Assembly: GCA_030651765.1 (NCBI GenBank)
Contig: JAUSBY010000001.1
Location: 62,001 to 126,000 of the forward strand
Length of the DNA: 64,000 nt
Reading direction: 5' to 3'
Source of the DNA: Coriobacteriia bacterium
GTDB taxonomy: Bacteria; Actinomycetota; Coriobacteriia; Anaerosomatales; Anaerosomataceae
How positions within the stretch are numbered: the stretch's first letter is position 1; every line of letters begins with the position of its first letter. The notes under the pieces were generated by a model. That model searched no databases and was not told the origin of the DNA. It worked only from the letters and a program-made list of their open reading frames with translations. Made by a program: the position numbers and the translations under genes. Below are positions 55,510 to 55,877 of this stretch, one piece after another.

Positions 55510-55599
55510 AGGTAGAGTCCTCCCGTGAGAAGGGTTGGGTTAGAAGGTGCGCGATGCTGCGCACGGACAGGCGCGATCGCGATGGTCACGCTCCCGGTC

Positions 55600-55742
55600 C
55601 GATGACGCTTTGTCCACCGCGGTCACCCGCGGGCTTTGTCGTCATCGTTTCGACCCCGGGACTGAAGGGCCGGAGGGCCATCCGCCGAATGTTTCGATAG
55701 ACCCTCACCTCGTCACCTGACGGTTCGTCAGGCCTGGCGCTT
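55600..55742 (-). ncRNA. glmS ribozyme: glmS self-cleaving ribozyme (glucosamine-6-phosphate-activated)
   Basis: On the minus strand, about 90 bases before the glmS start, the sequence follows the glmS ribozyme plan. The cleavage site AA|GCGCC puts the cut between 55741 and 55740. P1 is CCTGACG-AAC-CGTCAGG (55732-55716). The core TGACGAGG, TATCGAAAC and TTCGGCGGATGG contains P2 (GAGGG/CCCTC) and P2.1 (CGAA/TTCG). P4 is CGATGACG/CGTCATCG (55647-55640, 55607-55600), enclosing two GACAAAG-type internal loops and a CCGCGG hairpin. In known cases glucosamine-6-phosphate is the cofactor and cleavage exposes the mRNA to decay. Confidence 0.93.
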
Positions 55743-55782
55743 GCGTTCAGTCAGGGGGGCGCCCTCCTCTCAGCCGATCGGA

Positions 55783-55795
55783 CAGCGTGATTATA
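55783..55795 (-). promoter_or_regulatory. glmS promoter -10 element
   Basis: TATAAT on the minus strand (complement of 55790-55795) would start transcription near 55783, leaving about 42 bases before the ribozyme cleavage site. No convincing -35 hexamer at normal distance was found (TTGCGC is 21 bases away). Confidence 0.55.
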
Positions 55796-55845
55796 TCAGT
55801 GATACGCGCATCCATAGCGCAACGAGCGGATGACGCTCACCGAAG

Positions 55846-55877
55846 CATCGGGCCCCGGCAATTGCCGGGGCCCGATG
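55846..55877 (-). terminator. Perfect palindromic terminator after the CWB2 propeller gene
   Basis: A 32-base perfect palindrome (16-bp arms, CATCGGGCCCCGGCAA and complement) lies 20 bases beyond the stop of the leftward surface protein gene and just upstream of the glmS promoter. Confidence 0.8.

Follow-up and report, generated by a model that had tools for sequence, protein, structure and literature searches.

The leader of the glmS gene in the window (the whole 64,000-nucleotide stretch of Coriobacteriia DNA analysed here) had initially been annotated as carrying a complete-looking glmS ribozyme, which raises the question whether the element is genuine and how far this type of switch reaches in the surrounding lineages. 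A scan of the window against all 4227 Rfam families gave a single match above the curated score, to the glmS model RF00234, on the minus strand (55752-55590; 98.6 bits, E 8e-22; gathering score 37 bits). The covariance-model check proposed with the initial annotation thus returned a significant match, which spans model positions 1-167 of 167 without any pair marked as non-standard and has a G+C content of 64%. No other copy occurs in the 2.26 Mb genome, and the element lies upstream of the only glmS gene. The glmS start codon (55509) is found 80-90 nt 3' of the ribozyme and is preceded by a Shine-Dalgarno-like GGGAGGA (55524-55518).

The published pairing scheme for the core of the Thermoanaerobacter tengcongensis glmS ribozyme (PMC7125110) maps directly onto the sequence when G1 of the cleavage product is placed at 55740, and the predicted cleavage site, A|GCGCC, falls exactly between 55741 and 55740, where the cut had been expected. 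The P1, P2, P2.1 and P4 pairings are all present as first described, together with P2.2, P3, P3.1, P4a and a GUGA tetraloop, which were absent from that description (Table 1). P2.2 consists of the pairs C2-G, G3-C, C4-G, C5-G and G7-C with A6 bulged, and P2.1, which contributes to the active site and the cofactor pocket (PMC7125110), consists of C-G, G-C and A-U. All eight pseudoknot pairs are present and invariant in 28 sequences, which is expected for active-site helices and uninformative alone. The 'paired GACAAAG loops' of the initial annotation correspond to the A-rich internal loop of P4, with one strand at 55640-55634 and the other at 55613-55607. Roles for this internal loop and for the tetraloop have been described, and in B. 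subtilis the GNRA tetraloop docks on P1 (PMC11602151). The peripheral features are all there, comprising the P3/P3.1 pseudoknot, the P4 domain, the GNRA loop and the A-rich internal loop. The pairing between L3 and the 3' flank, which we take to be P3.1 after the B. subtilis ribozyme, has its 3' strand at 55596-55592, so that the element ends at 55592; the ribozyme had been put in the right place, with the limit of 55600 given for it about 8 nt too short.

Table 1. Features of the glmS leader in the window, and ribozyme loci in family f18
Feature	Position	Strand	Observation
Extended -10 promoter element TGATATAAT	55790..55798	(-)	Conserved in carriers
Purine-rich leader box GAGAGGAGGGCGCC	55758..55771	(-)	GGRG-N(0-8)-GCC in carriers
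glmS ribozyme, A-1 to end of P3.1 3' strand	55592..55741	(-)	RF00234 98.6 bits; covariation of 45 pairs, 28 sequences
P2.2 pseudoknot, CGCC(A)G 55739-55734 with CGGCG 55687-55683	55683..55739	(-)	Invariant 28/28; scheme PMC7125110
P1 hairpin	55715..55733	(-)	4 pairs changed on both sides
P2.1 pseudoknot, CGA 55712-55710 with TCG 55697-55695	55695..55712	(-)	Invariant 28/28
P2, GAGGG/CCCTC	55673..55706	(-)	100% paired in 28 sequences; 3 pairs changed on both sides
P3 with loop L3	55651..55672	(-)	98.2% paired
P3.1 pseudoknot, L3 TCCCG 55661-55657 with 3' flank CGGGA 55596-55592	55592..55661	(-)	5/5 pairs in window
P4 with internal loop (ACAAAG strands), P4a, GUGA tetraloop (55626-55623)	55600..55647	(-)	98% and 96% paired; 10 pairs changed on both sides
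glmS, glutamine--fructose-6-phosphate transaminase, 608 aa	53683..55509	(-)	TIGR01135 842.5 bits, cut-off 418
f18 ribozyme loci, genomes with nagB-associated copies	L145 (3271-3423 and 5582-5731, the latter in the nagB leader), L155, L157, L159-L161, L163, L228, L232-L234, L240, L241		

The likeness to a glmS ribozyme is beyond chance. In an alignment of 28 sequences from the same order as the window, 25 of the 45 assessed pairs showed two-sided changes (shuffles 14.4, sd 1.7), and 127 cells were changed on both sides (shuffles 41.8); neither value was reached in any of 500 shuffles. Standard pairs filled 95.4% of the pair cells, a level also not reached in 500 shuffles, and slid structures were 30-43% paired; because the structure was drawn up with the window sequence and the published scheme as its basis, this percentage leans towards the window, and the two-sided changes are the stronger evidence. 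Within P3.1, four of the five pair positions were changed on both sides in relatives, with A-U, C-G, U-A and G-C variants that remain paired in most species. The active-site segments AGCGCC, GACGAGG, ATCGA and TCGGCGG were invariant or near-invariant in the 28 sequences. Minimum-energy folding without pseudoknots gave z values that were only moderate, -2.5 for the ribozyme and -1.6 for the leader as a whole, for which alternative pairings with the GC-rich leader were predicted; we counted this against the best explanation.

At the sequence level, assignment to the glmS class is supported by the covariance model, the conserved active site, covariation in relatives and the position before the only glmS gene. 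We consider it almost certain that this is a genuine glmS ribozyme, in which cleavage triggered by glucosamine-6-phosphate (GlcN6P) would lower GlmS; what the analysis shows is family membership, an intact structure, covariation, a conserved promoter, the gene context and the presence of RNase J, while ligand, cleavage and mRNA decay are inferred. Transcription would start downstream of an extended -10 element, at about 55783, and run through the ribozyme into glmS. Accumulating GlcN6P would bind the preformed pocket and supply its amine as the general acid, upon which the RNA would self-cleave, with A 55741 and G 55740 on either side of the cut. The 3' fragment, bearing a 5'-hydroxyl end, would be degraded, most likely by the RNase J encoded in the genome (TIGR00649, 570.5 bits, above cut-off), and less GlmS would be made. 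RNase J reportedly degrades the 5'-hydroxyl cleavage product in B. subtilis (work of Collins et al. from 2007). Members of the family bind GlcN6P and cleave themselves ahead of G1, after which the cleaved mRNA decays (PMC6154101, PMC11477304).

The upstream TATAAT recorded in the initial annotation was found at 55795-55790. It is preceded by TG at 55798-55797 and lies approximately 50-58 nt upstream of the ribozyme; a promoter scan returned no standard two-hexamer promoter, and the element is of the extended -10 type. A second conserved element, the purine-rich box, is located about 30 nt upstream of the cleavage site (approximately 25-47 nt across carriers). Of 30 carriers, 26 had an extended -10 of this kind located 58-82 nt upstream of the cleavage site, where shuffles gave 0.24, and 24 had the GGRG-N(0-8)-GCC box, where shuffles gave about one; both patterns were written after viewing the leaders, so these counts are descriptive. 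The leaders inspected for the box were those of L002-L030 and L145-L163; its GCC part belongs to the window's order, and the ribozymes of f18, another family of the class, are preceded by a similar GGAAGGGAG-like stretch. The extended -10 is also kept in ribozyme-less orthologues, in which inspection by eye revealed no purine-rich box. To our knowledge, no such conserved purine-rich box is known upstream of the B. subtilis or T. tengcongensis ribozymes. Pairing of the box with the ribozyme as an off-state found no support and was rejected: leader and ribozyme of one species gave duplex energies no better than mismatched combinations across species, and position by position there was little excess over shuffles (best mean z approximately -0.7). 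A leader peptide behind the box was likewise rejected, with a suitably spaced start codon in just 4 of 30 leaders. Between the stop codon of the upstream surface-protein gene (55898) and the glmS promoter, the window contains a perfect 15-bp inverted repeat (ATCGGGCCCCGGCAA/TTGCCGGGGCCCGAT, 55847-55876) without a T run, which is perhaps the terminator of the surface-protein gene.

The suggestion that the motif extends into this lineage holds widely. RF00234 matched in 65 of 398 sampled genomes of the class, 64 of them above cut-off and chiefly from the window's own order and f18, and in 75 of 396 genomes of the phylum sample; most sampled families of the order, one more family in the class and several elsewhere in the phylum are represented. 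The ribozyme precedes glmS in all fetched carriers of the order and of the phylum families outside f18. No report of a glmS ribozyme in Coriobacteriia was found in the literature searched, the main distribution surveys lying outside its reach, and a GlmS search for named close relatives gave only distant GlmS proteins among the matches listed. The switch type itself is familiar, and the window copy adds a further, non-isolated case.

Because glmS ribozymes are best known from Bacillota, and several changes of state are needed on the GlmS tree, we considered whether the element arrived through recent horizontal transfer of a glmS gene from Bacillota, ribozyme included. We regard this as unlikely, because the GlmS proteins of the order form one clade of 37 rows (SH-aLRT 100), 30 of them with the ribozyme, apart from the sampled Bacillota, and because of the spread over the families of the order. 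The actinobacterial affiliation rests on the tree, in which same-phylum rows cluster with records labelled Actinomycetota; one of these records (L085) carries the ribozyme motif itself. A very old transfer is possible. Seven rows of the order's clade have no ribozyme; as the tree is drawn they fall in four places, separated in part by weak forks, and this distribution points to repeated loss within the order. Four genomes of a single genus in the window's family encode a GlmS with 76-77% identity, and their leaders retain the TGNTATAAT element without the ribozyme. The orthologous glmS genes of L170-L176 lack a ribozyme and have retained a TGNTATAAT-type promoter (TACAAT in L176); searches of the ribozyme-less orthologue leaders down to E 1 gave no ribozyme remnants, and L170-L176 appear to be clean losses. 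Five other genomes of the family (L178-L182) have a different GlmS (approximately 49% identical), placed elsewhere in the tree and without the ribozyme, an apparent replacement of the glmS gene. That several relatives are without the ribozyme was counted against the best explanation.

In f18, 24 glmS ribozymes were found among 140 genomes, 23 of which carried at least one. According to the gene that follows, 11 precede glmS and 13 precede nagB, which encodes glucosamine-6-phosphate deaminase, with both arrangements in one genome. The distance from cleavage site to start codon is 168-189 nt in the nagB type, and the nagB product of L145 matches TIGR00502 with 381 bits. Seven of the 13 loci have a gene for a GlmU-like acetyltransferase after nagB, with glmM next in L145 and L163; some loci are cut short. 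L155 and L157 have neither the GlmU-like gene nor glmM within 4-5 kb of nagB. The full-length regions upstream of glmS in five nagB-type genomes contained no ribozyme down to E 1, and a sixth genome (L187), with just 189 nt upstream of glmS, was uninformative. One would not expect a deaminase to be repressed by its own substrate; repression by the product would be less surprising if NagB worked in the synthetic direction, from fructose-6-phosphate and ammonia to GlcN6P, and such feedback is put forward as a hypothesis. NagB as the only source of GlcN6P in genomes without GlmS was rejected: GlmS is present in 15 of 15 genomes examined, which weakens the hypothesis of a synthetic NagB. For the class, we tentatively propose, as a possibility with less than even chances, that the ribozyme is an old module not bound to glmS, which in f18 came to stand before nagB by relocation or duplication (alongside the GlmU-like acetyltransferase at about half of the loci) and may there give product feedback on a synthetic NagB. 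Near glmS in two f18 genomes, matches to the ZMP/ZTP riboswitch (RF01750) above cut-off were present (L183, 3693-3772, plus strand; L197, 1024-1103, minus strand).

The nagB-associated copies also bear on whether the window copy could have kept its fold with a changed ligand or output, for example with cleavage raising expression. Simple repression by GlcN6P is not expected for a catabolic enzyme, and a conserved leader box precedes the ribozyme; nevertheless, the pocket and catalytic segments fit the consensus and glmS itself is the gene that follows, which makes such a change very unlikely. A structural relic, descended from a glmS ribozyme and no longer cleaving in this species, is extremely improbable: decaying copies could exist in an order that has apparently lost the ribozyme several times, but here no pair is broken, every invariant core residue is kept, P3.1 has a compensatory C-G where A-U is usual, and the congener L016 retains the same structure.

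With a genuine glmS ribozyme in front of glmS in the window, a thoroughly studied metabolite-dependent ribozyme reaches into actinobacterial lineages that have received little study, and its diverged copies are numerous enough for tests of covariation, loss and re-use. Relatives that appear to have lost the ribozyme cleanly and kept the promoter serve as natural controls for its role in the cell. The window copy itself is of modest interest compared to the nagB copies, which lead to a concrete, testable prediction on an enzyme usually seen as catabolic; the broad occurrence in actinobacterial lineages and the link to nagB in a sister family deserve notice.

Compared to the RF00234 family, the window copy shares the full-length match, the core, P1-P4, the tetraloop, the internal loop and the position in the glmS leader, and differs in being GC-rich, in its very short P1 loop and in having TCCCG/CGGGA for P3.1. 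With the B. subtilis and T. tengcongensis ribozymes (PMC11602151, PMC7125110) it has in common the double pseudoknot P2.2-P2-P2.1, the G7-C and C2-G pairs, the A-rich P4 internal loop and the GNRA loop, in another host lineage. The E. coli GlmY/GlmZ/RapZ system (PMC7073468) relies on trans-acting small RNAs and a protein instead of a ribozyme, and serves the same purpose, feedback of GlcN6P on glmS.
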